From: Candidatus Poribacteria bacterium
Lineage (GTDB): Bacteria > Poribacteria > WGA-4E > WGA-3G
NCBI GenBank assembly: GCA_022827185.1
Contig: JAJDTM010000062.1
Coordinates: 124,001 to 188,000 of the forward strand
Direction: 5' to 3'
DNA: 64,000 nt
The notes beneath the pieces were generated by a model, which was not told the origin of the DNA, searched no databases, and saw only the letters and a program-made list of their open reading frames with translations. Each line of letters starts with the position of its first letter. Position 1 is the stretch's first letter. The position numbers were made by a program, and so were the translations under genes. Below are positions 45,906 through 53,742 of the stretch, piece after piece.

Positions 45906-46541
45906 CTAAATTGCTTGTTCGTAGGTGAGGTAGCAATACTCGTCAACATCAACTACACGTGTGCCTTCTAACTGCACTGACTCCTTGAAAAACGGTGCAT
46001 CTAACACCCATGTGTGGTATTCGCCTTGTTCGCCGCACGCGTCAATCGGCAGCCGCTTCAGTTCTGAAATGAGTTCGGCATCGAAATACCTACCAGCAAT
46101 AGTCGTCTGGAAATGCTTTTTGTACGCGAGGGAGCAGATAACTTTAAACTTATTGGCGATTAGGGTTTCCAGTATCGCATGCCGATCCAATTCCCACAAC
46201 GGTTTGTAGGCTTCCACCAAACCCGCCGCAACATCATCAATCCAATTCGGCATCCCACCTATAGTAGAAATATCGCCCGTAATTAGTATCTCAATTCCGG
46301 TGTCTCTAATCGACTTAATTTGTTGGTGGTAACTCTGTTTGTAGGGTTCAGAAATCGGCACGAATTCAATAGGAATTCCGATCTTTCGTGCCTGTAATTC
46401 CATGAGTTCCGTCGGATGGGCATAGAATTGGCGACCATCCGCTGGCACAAAACAGACAAGTCTCCCTATATCGTAAAGATTTAAGGAGACTTGAAATGCA
46501 AGGGCAGAATCTTTTCCGCCTGTCCACAATATGGCTGCTTT
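45906..46541 (-). CDS. DUF71/Dph6-like PP-loop ATPase, second copy
   Basis: About 211 residues. PP-loop ILWTGGKDSALAF near the start, then GGMPNWIDDVAAG-type core and the family hallmark GEQGEYHTWVLDAPFF near the C-terminus. ATG 46541 begins 7 bases after the previous stop; an open frame extending upstream to 46736 overlaps the preceding gene and is not used. DUF71 (COG2102) proteins amidate diphthine in archaea and eukaryotes; comparative genomics links bacterial subgroups to B12 salvage. Bacteria lack diphthamide, so the substrate here is unknown. Confidence 0.82.
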   Translation of the reverse strand, partial: KAAILWTGGKDSALAFQVSLNLYDIGRLVCFVPADGRQFYAHPTELMELQARKIGIPIEFVPISEPYKQSYHQQIKSIRDTGIEILITGDISTIGGMPNWIDDVAAGLVEAYKPLWELDRHAILETLIANKFKVICSLAYKKHFQTTIAGRYFDAELISELKRLPIDACGEQGEYHTWVLDAPFFKESVQLEGTRVVDVDEYCYLTYEQAI

Positions 46542-46548
46542 CATCAAT

Positions 46549-47307
46549 TTACCCATCCAGCGGCACCACATCAGCATAAACGTAAGTCGGTGAGGTGTTG
46601 CTGCTTGTGTGAATTTTGTCATCGTCATCCTTTTTAGAAACGATGTCTCTCTGGACGACTTCCCCCGGTTTCGCGGCGACAGGTGAACTGAACATCGGTC
46701 CGTCCACGACACACGTATGGAACTCCCCGTTTTCACCGAGCGGGTCTACGCCGTCCGGCAAATCCGCGAGAAGATCAGCATCGAACCATCGTCCTGCCAA
46801 GTCAGCAGGGACTTTGGTAGGATTCAGTGCAGTGATGATGGCGCGCAAGCCGGCAGCGATCATCTTTTCCGCAAGCAGCGGTGTGTCCTCTCCCCACACT
46901 GGAAAAATCGGCGTGAAACCGGTGCCTTTGAGTTTATCCTCGCGGTATTCACGAATATCTTCCAAAAAGAGATCTCCGAATGCGAAATGCGATGCTGTCA
47001 AATCTTCAGGCAATGCTTCCACTTCAGCAAGGAACTTTCGCATCGCCTCTTCATAGATTGCATTGGAACAGGGATACGGAATCGGTATCTCATACAACGG
47101 CACGCCGAGTTTCTCTGCTTGCTGTTTCAACACCCATGCAGGCGTAGAATGAATAGAGACGCGGTCAAACGTTTTTGTGACAGTCGTAAAGATACCGCGC
47201 ACGTCGTAGCGTTCAGACTGTTGGCGCAGGGTATGAAGTGCCCACGCCGAATCTTTACCTGATGACCAGGAGACTAAGACCGGCGTAGGACTTGTCTGTT
47301 TTGTCAT
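46549..47307 (-). CDS. DUF71/Dph6-like PP-loop ATPase, first copy
   Basis: About 252 residues. PP-loop VSWSSGKDSAWAL, middle ASHFAFGDLFLEDIREYRE, and GENGEFHTCVVDGPMF as the family C-terminal motif. ATG 47307 follows AAAGG. Twenty bases separate it from trpG and 7 from its paralogue, so the three look cotranscribed. The two ATPases are divergent rather than recent copies. Confidence 0.85.
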   Translation of the reverse strand: MTKQTSPTPVLVSWSSGKDSAWALHTLRQQSERYDVRGIFTTVTKTFDRVSIHSTPAWVLKQQAEKLGVPLYEIPIPYPCSNAIYEEAMRKFLAEVEALPEDLTASHFAFGDLFLEDIREYREDKLKGTGFTPIFPVWGEDTPLLAEKMIAAGLRAIITALNPTKVPADLAGRWFDADLLADLPDGVDPLGENGEFHTCVVDGPMFSSPVAAKPGEVVQRDIVSKKDDDDKIHTSSNTSPTYVYADVVPLDG

Positions 47308-47327
47308 TATTAAACCTTTCTGTTTCT

Positions 47328-47891
47328 CTACAGTGCTAAGAAGTTGCTGAGTAGGCTTTTCCCGGAGGCTGTCAAAATCGACTCCGGATGGAATTGCACG
47401 CCCCAAATTGGCAGGGTCTTATGCCGAAGTCCCATGATCTCGTCCTGATCTGTCCAAGCCGTGATCTCAAGACAATCGGGTAAAGTCTCTTTTTTAACAA
47501 TAAGCGAATGGTAGCGTGTCGCTTCAAATGGGTTATCCAATCCCTCAAAAAGTTCAGTGCCGTTATGGAGGATCATTGAAGTTTTACCGTGCATCAATCG
47601 ATCGGCACGAACAACATCACCGCCGAAGACATCGCCGATACATTGGTGTCCAAGGCAGACCCCTAAGATCGGAACTTTCCCAGCGAAATGCTGTATGGCA
47701 TCGTTGGATATTCCCGCCTCTTTCGGTGTGCAAGGACCGGGTGAAATGACAATCCGTTCCGGTGCCAGGGCGTCTAATGCATCCAATCCTATCTTCCGAC
47801 TCCGATGGACCTCTAATTCAGCACCGAGCTCGCCCAAATACTGAACCAAGTTATAGGTGAAGGAGTCGTAGTTATCAATCATTAAAACCAT
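47328..47891 (-). CDS. trpG: Anthranilate/aminodeoxychorismate synthase glutamine amidotransferase
   Basis: 187 residues, class I amidotransferase. [19 protein letters not shown], the oxyanion loop [12 protein letters not shown], the nucleophile [15 protein letters not shown] and the [10 protein letters not shown] His-Glu pair are all present. It supplies ammonia to TrpE. It could also serve PabB for folate, since one subunit does both jobs in many bacteria. Its ribosome binding site lies in an interspersed repeat. Confidence 0.93.
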
Positions 47892-48025: not shown

Positions 48026-49528
48026 TCACAATAAGAAACCTTGTTCTGCCAATGCGATAGCACTGAGCATTGCTTTCGCTTTATTCAAAGTTTCGTAATA
48101 CTCAGTTTCAGGCACAGAATCGGCGACAATACCAGCACCCGCTTGCACATAAGCCGTGCTATCTTTGATAACCGCGGTTCGGATCGTAATCGCTGTGTCT
48201 GTGCTGCCGGAGAAACTGAAGTACCCCACCGCACCTCCGTATGTCCCGCGGCGTGTCGATTCGAGTTCATCAATGATTTCCATTGCCCGGACCTTCGGAG
48301 CTCCAGAAAGGGTGCCTGCGGGGAGGCACGCTCGGATCACATCGAAAGCCGTGACATGCTCACGCAGTCTCCCAATCACGTGTGAAACGATGTGCATCAC
48401 ATGTGAGAAGCGTTCAACTATCATGAGATCGGTGACTTCAACCGTATGATACTTACAGACGCGCCCGAAGTCATTCCGTCCCAAATCAACGAGCATGACG
48501 TGCTCCGCGCGTTCCTTCGGATCCGCGAGGAGTGAGCGTTCCATCTCAAGATCCTCCTCTGTCGTTTTGCCGCGCGGGCGGGTTCCGGCAAGCGGTCGAT
48601 GCTGAGCGAGTCCATCCTCTACCCTTACCATCATCTCCGGCGATGCGCCTACAATATCAAAACCATCCAGTTTCAGATAATACATGTAAGGCGATGGGTT
48701 GACGATCCGCAATGCGCGATACACCTCGAATGAGTCTACAGATACTGGACAGCTCAACCGCTGCGAGATTACCGCTTGGATGATGTCGCCTGCGGTTATG
48801 TATTCTTTCGCACGCCGAACCGCGGCTTCGTAACCAGACTTTGTGAAATTCGATTGCGGATCGGATAGGATTTCATCATACCCGTCCTGCGGATCGCTAT
48901 GCTTGCTGCGTAAATGCGGTTCGGAAGTCGCTGTAAGCTTCTCGACTAAAGCGTCAATTTTCACAAGCGCATCCGTGTAAGCCTCGTCTACATCTCCATC
49001 AATATGTGCGTTCGCCACAATCTTGATCTGATGGTTCACATGATCAAATATCAAAAGCGTCTCGGCAATCATGAAAAAGCAATCCGGAAGCTGCAGGTCA
49101 TCTTCGGTATTATCTGGCAACTCCTCGACGAAGCGGACCATGTCGTAACTCATATAACCCACCGCGCCACCGTGGAATTTTGGTAACTCTTCAGTGTCAA
49201 CAGGTCGGTAATTCTGCATCAATTCCTCAAGCGCACGCAACGGATCTTCATATTCCTGAACGACGGTTTCGCCTTTTTCCAAGTACTCAATCGTCACCTG
49301 ATGCCCTTTACTATGGAAAAGCACTGAGGGTTGACTCCCCAAAAAAGAGTAACGCGCAAGGTTTTCACCGCCTTCCACACTCTCCAACAAGAACGCAAAA
49401 TTATCAGATTTCAATTTATAGAACGCAGACACCGGGGTCTCCATATCCGCCAAAATCGATCGATATACCGGTATTGTGTTTCCTGATTTCGCTGCCTCGC
49501 GAAAGTCTTCCAATGTGGGATAATACAT
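48026..49528 (-). CDS. trpE: Anthranilate synthase component I
   Basis: About 500 residues; makes anthranilate from chorismate with TrpG. The tryptophan feedback site motif FLLESVEGG lies near the N-terminus. The catalytic domain shows RPLAGTRPRGKT, HVMLVDLGRNDFGRVC, LPAGTLSGAPKVRAMEII and AGAGIVADSVPETEY. ATG 49528 with AAAGGA eight bases upstream is better than the in-frame ATG 49546. ridA lies 38 bases upstream and trpG downstream. Confidence 0.95.
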   Translation of the reverse strand: MYYPTLEDFREAAKSGNTIPVYRSILADMETPVSAFYKLKSDNFAFLLESVEGGENLARYSFLGSQPSVLFHSKGHQVTIEYLEKGETVVQEYEDPLRALEELMQNYRPVDTEELPKFHGGAVGYMSYDMVRFVEELPDNTEDDLQLPDCFFMIAETLLIFDHVNHQIKIVANAHIDGDVDEAYTDALVKIDALVEKLTATSEPHLRSKHSDPQDGYDEILSDPQSNFTKSGYEAAVRRAKEYITAGDIIQAVISQRLSCPVSVDSFEVYRALRIVNPSPYMYYLKLDGFDIVGASPEMMVRVEDGLAQHRPLAGTRPRGKTTEEDLEMERSLLADPKERAEHVMLVDLGRNDFGRVCKYHTVEVTDLMIVERFSHVMHIVSHVIGRLREHVTAFDVIRACLPAGTLSGAPKVRAMEIIDELESTRRGTYGGAVGYFSFSGSTDTAITIRTAVIKDSTAYVQAGAGIVADSVPETEYYETLNKAKAMLSAIALAEQGFLL

Positions 49529-49566
49529 GAATAGTTCCTTTCTCATATCCTGCTTTTTTAGAACGA

Positions 49567-50025
49567 TTAGTCCGCAATTTCGACAACCATTTCAATGATA
49601 ACCGGCACCCCAAGAGGCAGTTGCACCGCGCCGATTGAGGCGCGGGCATGTCTGCCTTTATCGCCGAATACCTCAACGAAAAAGTCGGATGCACCGTTGA
49701 CAACCGCGGACTGGTCAGTGAAGTCGCGTGCTGAATTGACAAATCCAACCACTTTGACGACACGCTTGATTTGGTCGAGGTCGCCAAGTGCGTGTTTAAG
49801 GGTGCTTAACAAGCAGATCGCCACCTGACGCGCGGATCTATAGCCTACTGTGATCGTCGCATCGGTGCCGAGTTGACCTTTATCAATTCCTTCGTCCGTC
49901 ACGGGTCCATGCCCTGACACAAATATGAGATTGCCAGTCTGCCCCGTTGTGACGTAATTCGCTACGGGACCTGTCGGCTCTGGGAGTTGCACATCTAATT
50001 CTTCAAGCCTTTGTTCTGTTTTCAC
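49567..50025 (-). CDS. RidA/YjgF family deaminase
   Basis: 152 residues with the RidA fold: NLIFVSGHGPV, the long helix ARQVAICLLSTLKHALGDLDQI, FVNSARDFTDQ, and the C-terminal RASIGAVQLPLGVPVIIEM. RidA proteins hydrolyse reactive enamine/imine intermediates from PLP enzymes, protecting amino acid pathways. Placement before trpE is consistent with that. It belongs to the longer 150-residue subgroup, whose activity is less certain. AGGTG lies about eight bases before ATG. Confidence 0.88.
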   Translation of the reverse strand: MKTEQRLEELDVQLPEPTGPVANYVTTGQTGNLIFVSGHGPVTDEGIDKGQLGTDATITVGYRSARQVAICLLSTLKHALGDLDQIKRVVKVVGFVNSARDFTDQSAVVNGASDFFVEVFGDKGRHARASIGAVQLPLGVPVIIEMVVEIAD

Positions 50026-50226: not shown

Positions 50227-50607
50227 TTAGTAGACAGCATCTGCATCGAAAATCTTTTCACCTACGACCCGCGTTGACTCTCCATCGGGGGAGACTTCCC
50301 TAAAAAAGCAGGAGCGATAGCCGACATGGCACGCTGCGACCTTCTGCTCGACCTTTATGAGTAGGGCATCGCCATCACAATCAACTGCGACAGACTTAAC
50401 CTCTTGTGTATGCCCTGAAGTCTCCCCCTTGATCCAAAGTTTTTGGCGGGAACGGCTCCAGAAGCAGACACGCCCGGTTGACAGGGTTTGTTTGACCGCT
50501 TCAGCGTTCATATAGCCTACCATCAGGATTTCGTTGTTTGTGAAATCTTGAATGACCGCGGCGACTAAACCATCGCGGTCATATTTGAGTTCCGATAGAA
50601 TTTTCAT
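50227..50607 (-). CDS. hisI: Phosphoribosyl-AMP cyclohydrolase
   Basis: About 126 residues; third step of histidine synthesis. VGYMNAEAV, CFWSRSRQKLWIKGETSGH, VAVDCDGDALLIKV and CHVGYRSCFFR are the HisI signatures with the zinc cysteines and Mg aspartates. HisE is not fused. AAGGAG lies seven bases before ATG 50607. An intrinsic terminator sits directly upstream of that site. Confidence 0.94.
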   Translation of the reverse strand: MKILSELKYDRDGLVAAVIQDFTNNEILMVGYMNAEAVKQTLSTGRVCFWSRSRQKLWIKGETSGHTQEVKSVAVDCDGDALLIKVEQKVAACHVGYRSCFFREVSPDGESTRVVGEKIFDADAVY

Positions 50608-50625
50608 GTAGTTTCTCCTTATTAA

Positions 50626-50665
50626 AACAAAAAACCTTATGCTACCGGGATCGGTGTGCATAAGG
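50626..50665 (-). terminator. Intrinsic terminator in the hisI leader
   Basis: On the minus strand CCTTATGC and GCATAAGG form an 8-bp stem with an inner ACCG/CGGT stem, followed at once by TTTTTTG. It ends a few bases before the hisI ribosome binding site, so it must be conditional if hisI is read from the upstream promoter. Confidence 0.8.
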
Positions 50666-50728
50666 CTTCAACAGGACTTAAAAATGAAAAACGACGATTT
50701 TTAATCTCTATTTCAGTTATCCGTTTGA

Positions 50729-50807
50729 GCGCACACTCCCCCGCAAGCAATTGGAATGCCACCAATGCCAATGGTTAGATACGCTATGCAGGTTGGAGTG
50801 TGAACGC
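50729..50807 (-). ncRNA. Candidate structured leader RNA before hisI
   Basis: CACACTCC (50732-50739) and GGAGTGTG (50795-50802) form a perfect 8-bp stem, extended by GCG/CGC, around about 55 bases with repeated AATGCCA and ATTGG words. It lies between the predicted promoter and the terminator. No known riboswitch class is recognised. Confidence 0.4.
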
Positions 50808-50896
50808 AAAAGTTTCATGTTTATCACTTTCCACAGATAGATTAACAATTGTCAAATATTCACGCGTCAGCATAAAATTCCATAATAACAATAATA

Positions 50897-50925
50897 ATGA
50901 TACCACATTTATTTTGCATTGTCAA
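50897..50925 (-). promoter_or_regulatory. Predicted promoter of hisI
   Basis: On the minus strand, TTGACA (50925-50920) and TATCAT (50902-50897), spacer 17. The leader would be about 280 bases. Confidence 0.7.
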
Positions 50926-51013: not shown

Positions 51014-51229
51014 TTATCTGCTTCTCCATTCCCAACCAGCTTGCCGGTAGATGCTTCGTAATGTCCCTGTCGGGATATTGTCCTTTGTGCGTGAAGGTCG
51101 AGGAACAACGACCCGTTTCCCCGTATCTGGATGTTTATAGTGATAGTGACTGCCGCGCGCATGAGAAAATTCAAAACCGTCCTGCCGGAGCCTTTTATCG
51201 ACCTGAAGAAAAGTCAGAACGAAAGCCAA
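51014..51229 (-). CDS. hicA: HicA-like toxin
   Basis: About 71 residues. The core KRLRQDGFEFSHARGSHYHY with the catalytic-type histidine, followed by RVVVPRPSRTKDNIPTGTL, is the HicA double-stranded RNA-binding mRNA interferase pattern. The start appears to be TTG (51229), which may keep expression low; no strong ribosome binding site is seen. It lies 51 bases after the antitoxin gene. Confidence 0.75.
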   Translation of the reverse strand: MAFVLTFLQVDKRLRQDGFEFSHARGSHYHYKHPDTGKRVVVPRPSRTKDNIPTGTLRSIYRQAGWEWRSR

Positions 51230-51280
51230 ATCAATTTCTCTTCTCTACGAAGCAGCCTTGAAAAATATTTGATTTTCCAC

Positions 51281-51598
51281 TCACAGAGTAGAAACCTTGG
51301 ACAAGCTGACTACCTTCTTCGGAGTCACTTCACGCACTAATGCCGCCAGATTAATTGATACGGTTTCCCATAGCCCACCAGCATAATCGGGGTTGTTTGT
51401 ATGAAATGTAATATCCTTAGGATTAGGAATTGGTTCGCTATCAAGCAGCAAACCTTCAAGGTAACACTCAACCGCTTCCGCAGCTTGCATCAGGGTTTCC
51501 TCAATGGTATTTCCGGCACTGAAACACCCAGGCAAATCCGGAACCGTAACCCCGTAACAACTCTCTGGATCTTTGTGGATAACAATAGGATAGCGCAT
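51281..51598 (-). CDS. hicB: HicB-like antitoxin
   Basis: 105 residues. RYPIVIHKDPESCYGVTVPDLPGCFSAGNTIEETLMQAAEAV is the partially degraded RNase H fold of HicB. The C-terminal part is short, and a DNA-binding domain is not evident. The antitoxin precedes the toxin, the less common order. ATG 51598. Confidence 0.82.
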   Translation of the reverse strand: MRYPIVIHKDPESCYGVTVPDLPGCFSAGNTIEETLMQAAEAVECYLEGLLLDSEPIPNPKDITFHTNNPDYAGGLWETVSINLAALVREVTPKKVVSLSKVSTL

Positions 51599-52232: not shown

Positions 52233-52364
52233 ATCTGCTTTCGCGGGAAAGCGGTGGAACAGCGCACAGCAGTATCCTGTTAGAATCAGTATAGAAGTAC
52301 CGATTAAAGTATCATGGCTTCGGATTTAATTGCAGGATCAGCATTATACGAAGTGTCGCCTTAT

Positions 52365-52400
52365 CCCCTGTCTTTTCGAGAGAGCAGGGGTTTTTTGTTT
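52365..52400 (+). terminator. Riboswitch expression platform terminator
   Basis: CCCCTG and CAGGGG with an extended TCTTT/AGAGA stem and one bulge, then TTTTTTG. It lies between the aptamer and the ribosome binding site GGAGG of the first gene, so repression is probably by transcription termination. Confidence 0.85.
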
Positions 52401-52416
52401 CATTACGGAGGTTTTA

Positions 52417-53742
52417 ATGAACAGATTTTTTTTCTTGCGGCGACATTTTTCGTGCTATTTACCCCTACTTATAGTTCCAATTCTTTTTATATTTCTCGTC
52501 AGTCCAGCCTTTGGACAAACAGAGGTTCAAGACCTTGCGGTTGTCATAAACGCGCTGACGCATCCCGACTTGGAGATCACCGCTTCACTCTCACTCATTG
52601 ATCTAATGGAACCGAATGAAAAACGGGCTGTTGACAATGAGATACTCCATTTTAGCAACCAAGTGCTTCAGCGGAAGCGGGCAGTTGGCCTCGCTATTCG
52701 AGGACATCTCGCTTATATTCCGACTTTTAACTTACCTGTTACAGGTGCCGCAAGTAACGGCGATAATATTTTTATTGTCAATTTGGAAGATCGGGAGGTT
52801 GTTGGCGAGATTCCGATTCAGGAAGGTGCGACCCCTCAGCAGATCGTTTTTATTAATGATGAGAAGTTGTACGTTACGTGTGCAGCGGCACATGAGGTGC
52901 ATGTCGTTGACATTCCGAATCGTAGTGTAACGAAGGTCCTGACGGGTGCTTTCAACAAACCGACAGGTATCACGCTACTCAACGGCAAAGCCTACGTCTC
53001 GAATCCTGCATGGGAGTGGGATCCAGAGGCACGGATGACTACCTATTATGAGAGCCGTGTCACAGTCATTGATACAGCGACGGACATCGTGCTGAAATCC
53101 ATTCCGGTACCTACAAATGCAGGCGCAATCCTCAACGATGGTGAATCCACTATCATTGTCAAAACAGTTGGTAATTACAATGATGTTTTGGGACATCTCG
53201 TTCTGATTGACGCGAATACCGATGAGATTGTGGAAACGGTTAAACTCAAATTGACACCTGGTGCCTCTGCCCTCAACGCGGAAAAACGGCTGTTTATCCA
53301 AGGCAGTTGGCAAAAACCGGGCTTGCTCATCTACGATGTCGCGACGAAGGATTGGATCCGCGACGCAGATGACACGATTACCAATTTCAGCAACGATGCA
53401 GATGCATCTATTAGTGGTGGCTTGACTTTTGCACCGGACGGAAAACTCTATATCACCCAACCCGACTGGGGAGGTGGTGGACAGGATTACGTTCGCGTTA
53501 TGGATGTCATGGATGCCTCACTTTTGCAGACCTATCACGTTGGTCCGGGTGCTTCTATTCTGGCATTTGCACAGATTATCTCGCGCCGCGAAGATGTAAA
53601 CAACGACGGGATTGTCAATATCTCGGATCTGGTAATCGCGGTTCAGTTCTTGGGGGATCAGGGACCCGGAATCATCGCCGATGTCAATGGCGACGAAGTG
53701 GTCAATATCCTTGATCTGGTGCTGATAGGACAAGCACTTTAA
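52417..53742 (+). CDS. Secreted YVTN-type beta-propeller protein with C-terminal dockerin
   Basis: 441 residues. Signal peptide or anchor 11-33 (ends SPAFGQ). Residues about 92-388 contain propeller strands of the YVTN type (NIFIVNLEDREVVGEIPI, KLYVTCAAAHEVHVVDI, RVTVIDTATDIVLKSIPV, GLLIYDVATKDWI, GKLYITQPDW). Residues 391-441 are a dockerin with two calcium loops (DVNNDGIVNISDLVI, DVNGDEVVNILDLVL). It is the first gene after the cobalamin riboswitch. In Bacteroides the B12-capturing surface protein BtuG is also a propeller, so a role in binding corrinoids is plausible but inferred. ATG 52417 with GGAGG; an earlier in-frame ATG at 52330 overlaps the terminator and is rejected. Confidence 0.85.
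   Translation: MNRFFFLRRHFSCYLPLLIVPILFIFLVSPAFGQTEVQDLAVVINALTHPDLEITASLSLIDLMEPNEKRAVDNEILHFSNQVLQRKRAVGLAIRGHLAYIPTFNLPVTGAASNGDNIFIVNLEDREVVGEIPIQEGATPQQIVFINDEKLYVTCAAAHEVHVVDIPNRSVTKVLTGAFNKPTGITLLNGKAYVSNPAWEWDPEARMTTYYESRVTVIDTATDIVLKSIPVPTNAGAILNDGESTIIVKTVGNYNDVLGHLVLIDANTDEIVETVKLKLTPGASALNAEKRLFIQGSWQKPGLLIYDVATKDWIRDADDTITNFSNDADASISGGLTFAPDGKLYITQPDWGGGGQDYVRVMDVMDASLLQTYHVGPGASILAFAQIISRREDVNNDGIVNISDLVIAVQFLGDQGPGIIADVNGDEVVNILDLVLIGQAL

Follow-up and report, generated by a model that had tools for sequence, protein, structure and literature searches.

The leader that precedes hisI in the window, the whole 64,000-nucleotide stretch of Candidatus Poribacteria DNA analysed here, probably acts as a ribosome-mediated transcription attenuator of a hisI-(ridA)-trpE-trpG operon and senses the charging of both tRNA-His and tRNA-Trp, a reading to which the sequence evidence lends a probability of about 0.87. 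The model is supported by the leader open reading frame (ORF), its codon run, the RNA segments, their covariation, the gene order and the conservation of the element; ribosome stalling, the extent of regulation and an OR-type response in which shortage of either amino acid suffices are the parts of it that we infer. If the reading is true, a single operon answers to two amino acids of different pathways through one leader peptide, which makes it a natural two-input switch for asking how mixed control codons add up. Conservation of the element extends over families of an uncultured phylum in which the leader peptides share almost nothing except the run of Trp and His residues, and the element would represent translation-coupled attenuation in the Poribacteria, with duplicated leaders that carry changed control codons as a case for comparison.

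The leader peptide and the operon

All of the elements described lie on the minus strand, in the order sigma-70-like promoter, structured leader, intrinsic terminator and hisI, and the first-pass annotation was right to place the first three of these upstream of the hisI ribosome binding site. The promoter-like site, TTGACA-17-TATCAT with an extended -10 (50897-50925), matches the consensus at 11 of 12 positions, and TTGACA-(17)-TATxAT is likewise found 5' of the leader in the aligned relatives of the genus. The ribosome binding site AAGGAG (50615-50620), which like the leader ORF is read from the sequence, serves the hisI start at 50607. The hisI gene itself (50227-50607) encodes phosphoribosyl-AMP cyclohydrolase (PRA-CH; Pfam PF01502, E 7.8e-37), an identity upheld by the NCBIfam equivalog NF000768 above its cut-off. 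It is followed by a RidA-like gene (49567-50025; Pfam YjgF_endoribonc), by trpE for anthranilate synthase component I (48026-49546; TIGR00564 above cut-off), by trpG for the glutamine amidotransferase of anthranilate/aminodeoxychorismate synthase (47328-47891; TIGR00566 above cut-off) and by two overlapping diphthamide-synthase-like genes (45906-47406; Pfam PF01902), which also come after trpG in most of the relatives examined. The earlier proposal of a terminator-relieved attenuator of hisI thus holds, although hisI is not regulated alone, the predicted unit being hisI-trpE-trpG. The RidA-like gene is accessory, being present in 3 of the 22 genus g1 loci examined downstream of the leader (L085, L094 and L096-L115). 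In the window and in L085 it separates hisI from trpE, in L110 and L111 it separates trpE from trpG, and most of the relatives examined do without it.

Within the leader an ORF of 33 codons plus a stop codon (50717-50818), MKLLRSHSNLHSVSNHWHWWHSNCLRGSVRSNG, carries the in-frame control codons CAT TGG CAT TGG TGG CAT (50756-50773), which spell HWHWWH; the first-pass annotation had recognised no His-rich leader peptide and was mistaken on this point. The ORF, with predicted translation, is accordingly rich in codons for both amino acids that the operon serves. It is the same in all 30 g1 loci L001 and L004-L032, and all 70 loci examined in the various families have a leader peptide, 68 found by script and two (G026 and G014) apart from it, these having been missed because of the terminator pattern that the script uses. 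Among the 68 script-found peptides WHWW occurs in 56 and HWHWW in 47. Across the phylum, 53 of 84 genomes contain the exact pattern CAYTGGCAYTGGTGG, and the reversed control pattern, searched for in 72 genomes of the order, has matches in 3. Second HWHWW matches occur in G021, G030 and G033, with further matches at G025:C70 and G035:C51. In L062, L094 (G025) and L059 (G035) a 13-codon in-frame insertion separates HW from WWH within the control run.

Alternative structures of the leader RNA

How might such a peptide govern transcription? In the classical attenuator scheme the segments of the leader form mutually exclusive 1:2, 2:3 and 3:4 helices, and the Poribacteria leader can be laid out in the same manner. 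Transcription of the leader would start at its own promoter, and the 33-codon peptide would be translated by a ribosome. With both tRNAs charged the ribosome would reach the stop codon and mask segment 2, allowing the 3:4 terminator to form and transcription to end 5' of hisI. When His- or Trp-tRNA runs short the ribosome would instead stall on the CAT or TGG codons, leaving segment 2 (GGGGAGUGUGC) free to pair with segment 3 (GCACAC..UCCC), so that the terminator would not form and the operon would be transcribed. Without translation segment 1 would pair with segment 2, making termination the default. An OR response to shortage of either amino acid is the simplest prediction, because stalling at either kind of codon should free segment 2.

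The complete leader (50890-50600) has a folding energy of -80.5 kcal/mol (z -3.34), which none of 200 shuffles equals, and this is also the case for the part from terminator to ribosome binding site (50700-50605; z -4.88, 0 of 200). Taken by itself, the middle part (50890-50710) shows only mild structure, at z -1.66 and with 14 of 200 shuffles folding equally well. The intrinsic terminator (segments 3:4; 50624-50665, -18.5 kcal/mol), CCUUAUGC / GCAUAAGG with a T-run at 50624-50634, stands between the leader ORF and the first gene. Its stem is formed by AAGCCTTATGC, a loop and GCATAAGGTTT ahead of the T-run, and it was not listed by a simple terminator scan, which allows loops of 3-8 only. Across 28 leaders from families f1, f2, f4, f5, f6 and f7, 98.6% of the terminator cells are paired and 7 of 10 pairs have changes on both sides. 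Column shuffles give 82.9% paired cells and 4.1 such pairs, and sliding the arms leaves no more than 51.1% paired, in controls that ignore the relatedness of the leaders. When terminators were swapped, a leader's own terminator ranked top for only 4 of the 28, a test that is uninformative as a control for covariation, given the conserved core and the differences in G+C content among species. Among g1 leaders the helices show little variation: of the 22 RNAalifold consensus pairs only 1 changes on both sides.

Segment 1 (CACACUCC, 50795-50802) is complementary to segment 2 (50731-50741), whose GUGUGC lies 17 nt before the stop codon and which is complementary to segment 3 as well. In the window the 1:2 duplex reaches -25.1 kcal/mol, a value that none of 300 shuffles attains, and over the 28 leaders the support for this helix is moderate (mean z -1.62; z positive in 3 of 28). 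In 66 of 69 leaders the distance from the start of segment 2 downstream to the stop codon is 5-17 nt, the exceptions being G010 and G013 (-7) and G007 (23), and the leader of G049 gives no match to the segment-2 motif.

The antiterminator portion of segment 3 (50647-50659), identified by folding and covariation, comprises the lower 5' arm of the terminator and its loop, such that pairing with segment 2 is predicted to exclude the terminator. If the transcript starts past segment 1, the GGGGAGUGUGC/GCACAC..UCCC helix forms at -29.0 kcal/mol, a value matched by 7 of 200 shuffles; trimming the outer bases of segment 3 brings the fold down to chance level. For the core of eight pairs over the 28 leaders 198 of 224 cells are paired, against a mean of 179 and a maximum of 190 in 2000 row permutations, and when five segment 2 picks made by eye are left out the count is 167 of 184 against a maximum of 163 in 5000, permutations that again take no account of relatedness. 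Sliding the helix by 2 still pairs 149 and 142 of 224 cells, because the segment is a GU/CA repeat. Covariation among the leaders of relatives, which the first-pass annotation had proposed as a check, is thus seen in both the terminator and the predicted antiterminator.

Conservation within and beyond the family

By DNA search 55 of 97 related genomes carry the element, and a covariance model (R1), built on the 3' half of the leader, places it in 55 of the 58 genomes of the family (g1, 37 of 38; g3, 18 of 18; g2, 0 of 2), so that the structure is conserved in relatives. In the single g1 miss, G037, hisI sits at a contig end and only the terminator end is in view. All 40 family loci examined have hisI, trpE and trpG 3' of the leader (g3, 18 of 18; g1, 22 of 22). 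The region between stop codon and terminator keeps neither its sequence nor its length outside g1.

In other families of the phylum leaders rich in Trp and His, together with terminators, precede hisI-trpE, with peptide and RNA sequences that are almost entirely different. For instance, in f2 (G057) and in six g7 genomes of f4 the peptide differs (e.g. MQTLNRQPQFQIASHHWHWWHCVEGSSVPLLR) and the terminator is AGCCGTAGGC..GTCTACGGCT, with HWHWW and hisI-trpE kept. The sequence upstream of hisI was inspected in 18 further genomes, leader ORFs being chosen for their H/W content. Leaders with a terminator and adjacent hisI-trpE were found in f4 (G070, RWHWWH; G069, HHWHWRWH; G059, HNWHWWH), in f7 (G073, HHHWCWWH), in f5 (G078, HWHW; G079, RWWWHW; G075, HWHWGWCVW) and in f6 (G076, HICWWPWW), and G071 is a weak case. 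In G038, G040, G063 and G072 hisI and trpE are adjacent and no Trp/His leader is present; in G058, G061 and G081 the two genes are on separate contigs and no leader was seen; G074, G077, G080 and G082 have no hisI match; and the loci of G037 and G060 are interrupted by contig ends. A search for HWHWW through a collection of 84,980 genomes returned 83 stretches, of which 35, counted by eye, bear Poribacteria in their title, and those that match any of six operon proteins are all Poribacterial (Candidatus Poribacteria among the named records). L124 (G063) was taken as a chance hit.

Competing explanations, known systems and duplicated leaders

Could the attenuator sense Trp only, its His codons being kept by a constraint on RNA structure or by spacing? 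This main rival, which is considered unlikely, can draw on the three Trp codons of the core and on a first His that is not invariant, becoming Tyr or Asp in several relatives, as well as on the four Trp and single His of G076; yet His, at 12.0% of leader-peptide residues against 2.6% in six window proteins, is as enriched as Trp, at 9.4% against 1.0% (values biased upward because the script picks the W/H-richest ORF), and at least three His are found in 64 of the 68 peptides. His is also kept in families with unrelated RNA sequence, and the first gene of the operon is hisI. The main argument for dual sensing is that both kinds of codon are kept across families with unrelated peptides, 5' of an operon that holds hisI and trpE/trpG, and an attenuator of these sponge-associated Poribacteria in which one peptide senses His and Trp is the most likely reading of the sequences. 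We considered a PriA-like HisA/TrpF link as the basis of joint control and rejected it, since trpF and two His_biosynth proteins over cut-off are separate genes.

The leader's own promoter and terminator and its extra copies distant from hisI might instead suggest a trans-acting small RNA or a metabolite riboswitch in which the ORF is incidental, yet this is very unlikely given that the ORF with its control codons is the part conserved across families and that no Rfam family matches the leader at the gathering threshold, in keeping with the first-pass annotation, which had recognised no known riboswitch class. There is no conserved aptamer core among relatives, because the region from stop codon to terminator is not conserved beyond g1. 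A standalone small RNA, first suggested by the extra copies, was rejected and cis control favoured because every examined hisI copy has an in-frame His/Trp ORF with hisI-trpE-trpG downstream. At the gathering threshold the Rfam scan of the window returned only tRNA and a cobalamin riboswitch (RF00174, 52045-52232, plus strand, 111.6 bits), and that of 13 loci from several families only the same riboswitch, without a match to Trp_leader or His_leader; a freshwater-2 match (19.4 bits, gathering 49.9, E 1.6) was taken as chance. The cobalamin riboswitch, on the strand opposite to the attenuator, lies 5' of an ORF (52330-53742) with a dockerin type I match. Of the switch types that had been suggested the translation-dependent one is favoured, and a small-molecule ligand such as AICAR or PRPP is not needed. 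It is hardly conceivable that the terminator simply ends the transcript of the hicB-hicA toxin-antitoxin pair (51014-51598, minus strand; Pfam HicB_lk_antitox and HicA_toxin), for while these genes lie directly 5' of the leader promoter on the same strand, that promoter comes between hicA and the terminator. Moreover, of 69 loci, 32 have their nearest upstream ORF on the same strand, 10 have none in the locus and 27 have it on the opposite strand; in these 27 the leader is retained and, because of this orientation, the terminator cannot end the upstream gene's transcript.

How does the dual attenuator compare with those already described? The ilvGMEDA and thrABC leaders respond to several amino acids, which share a pathway. 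The Poribacteria leader resembles them in mixing control codons within one peptide and differs in that its two amino acids, His and Trp, come from separate pathways. In the enterobacterial trp (trpL) and his (hisL) systems, as given in the available part of PMC1183508, a leader peptide with control codons and a terminator lie 5' of the first structural gene. The Poribacteria leader likewise has a control-codon peptide, predicted exclusive helices and an intrinsic terminator, but trpL and hisL each serve one amino acid and a single-pathway operon, whereas here His and Trp codons are interleaved before hisI-trpE-trpG. Comparative genomics has also revealed leader peptides with runs of His codons in Gram-positive bacteria (PMC9413887) and of Trp codons in Actinobacteria (PMC1262725), which, in the available portions of these papers, concern a single amino acid, other phyla and other genes. 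In the open-licence literature neither a leader that combines control codons for His and Trp nor a report on the regulation of hisI-trpE in Poribacteria was found.

Some genomes carry further copies of the leader besides that of hisI. Eight full-length loci have other codons at the control positions, with FKRWHNKRPN or FKRWHNRRPN in L082, L083, L086a and L092a, FKPCPCGW or variants in L084, L089 and L095, and a third type in L081; L095 (C31:213643-213761), with a full-length ORF, belongs to the window's own genome. The same ABC-transporter-like ORF, checked against Pfam in the own-genome copy L003, follows some 200-320 nt downstream in five of the eight (L082, L084, L086a, L089 and L095). It is possible, if rather doubtful, that an RNA OR-gate coupling two unrelated amino acid pathways is old in Poribacteria and that its leader was duplicated and re-tuned, so that the paralogues, with segments and terminator kept, other control codons and mostly a place 5' of an ABC exporter, may respond as attenuators to other amino acids or act in trans as leader RNAs. 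For the latter, Sinorhizobium trpL, whose terminated leader or peptide may act in trans according to the available part of PMC7298713, may by analogy offer a model. Several of the full-length paralogues lie 3' of adenosine-deaminase-like ORFs and 5' of the ABC-transporter-like ORF. Other copies (L086b, L092b, L093, L087, L088, L090 and L091) are shortened to the 3' end with the terminator, the first three of them directly 3' of adenosine-deaminase-like ORFs.
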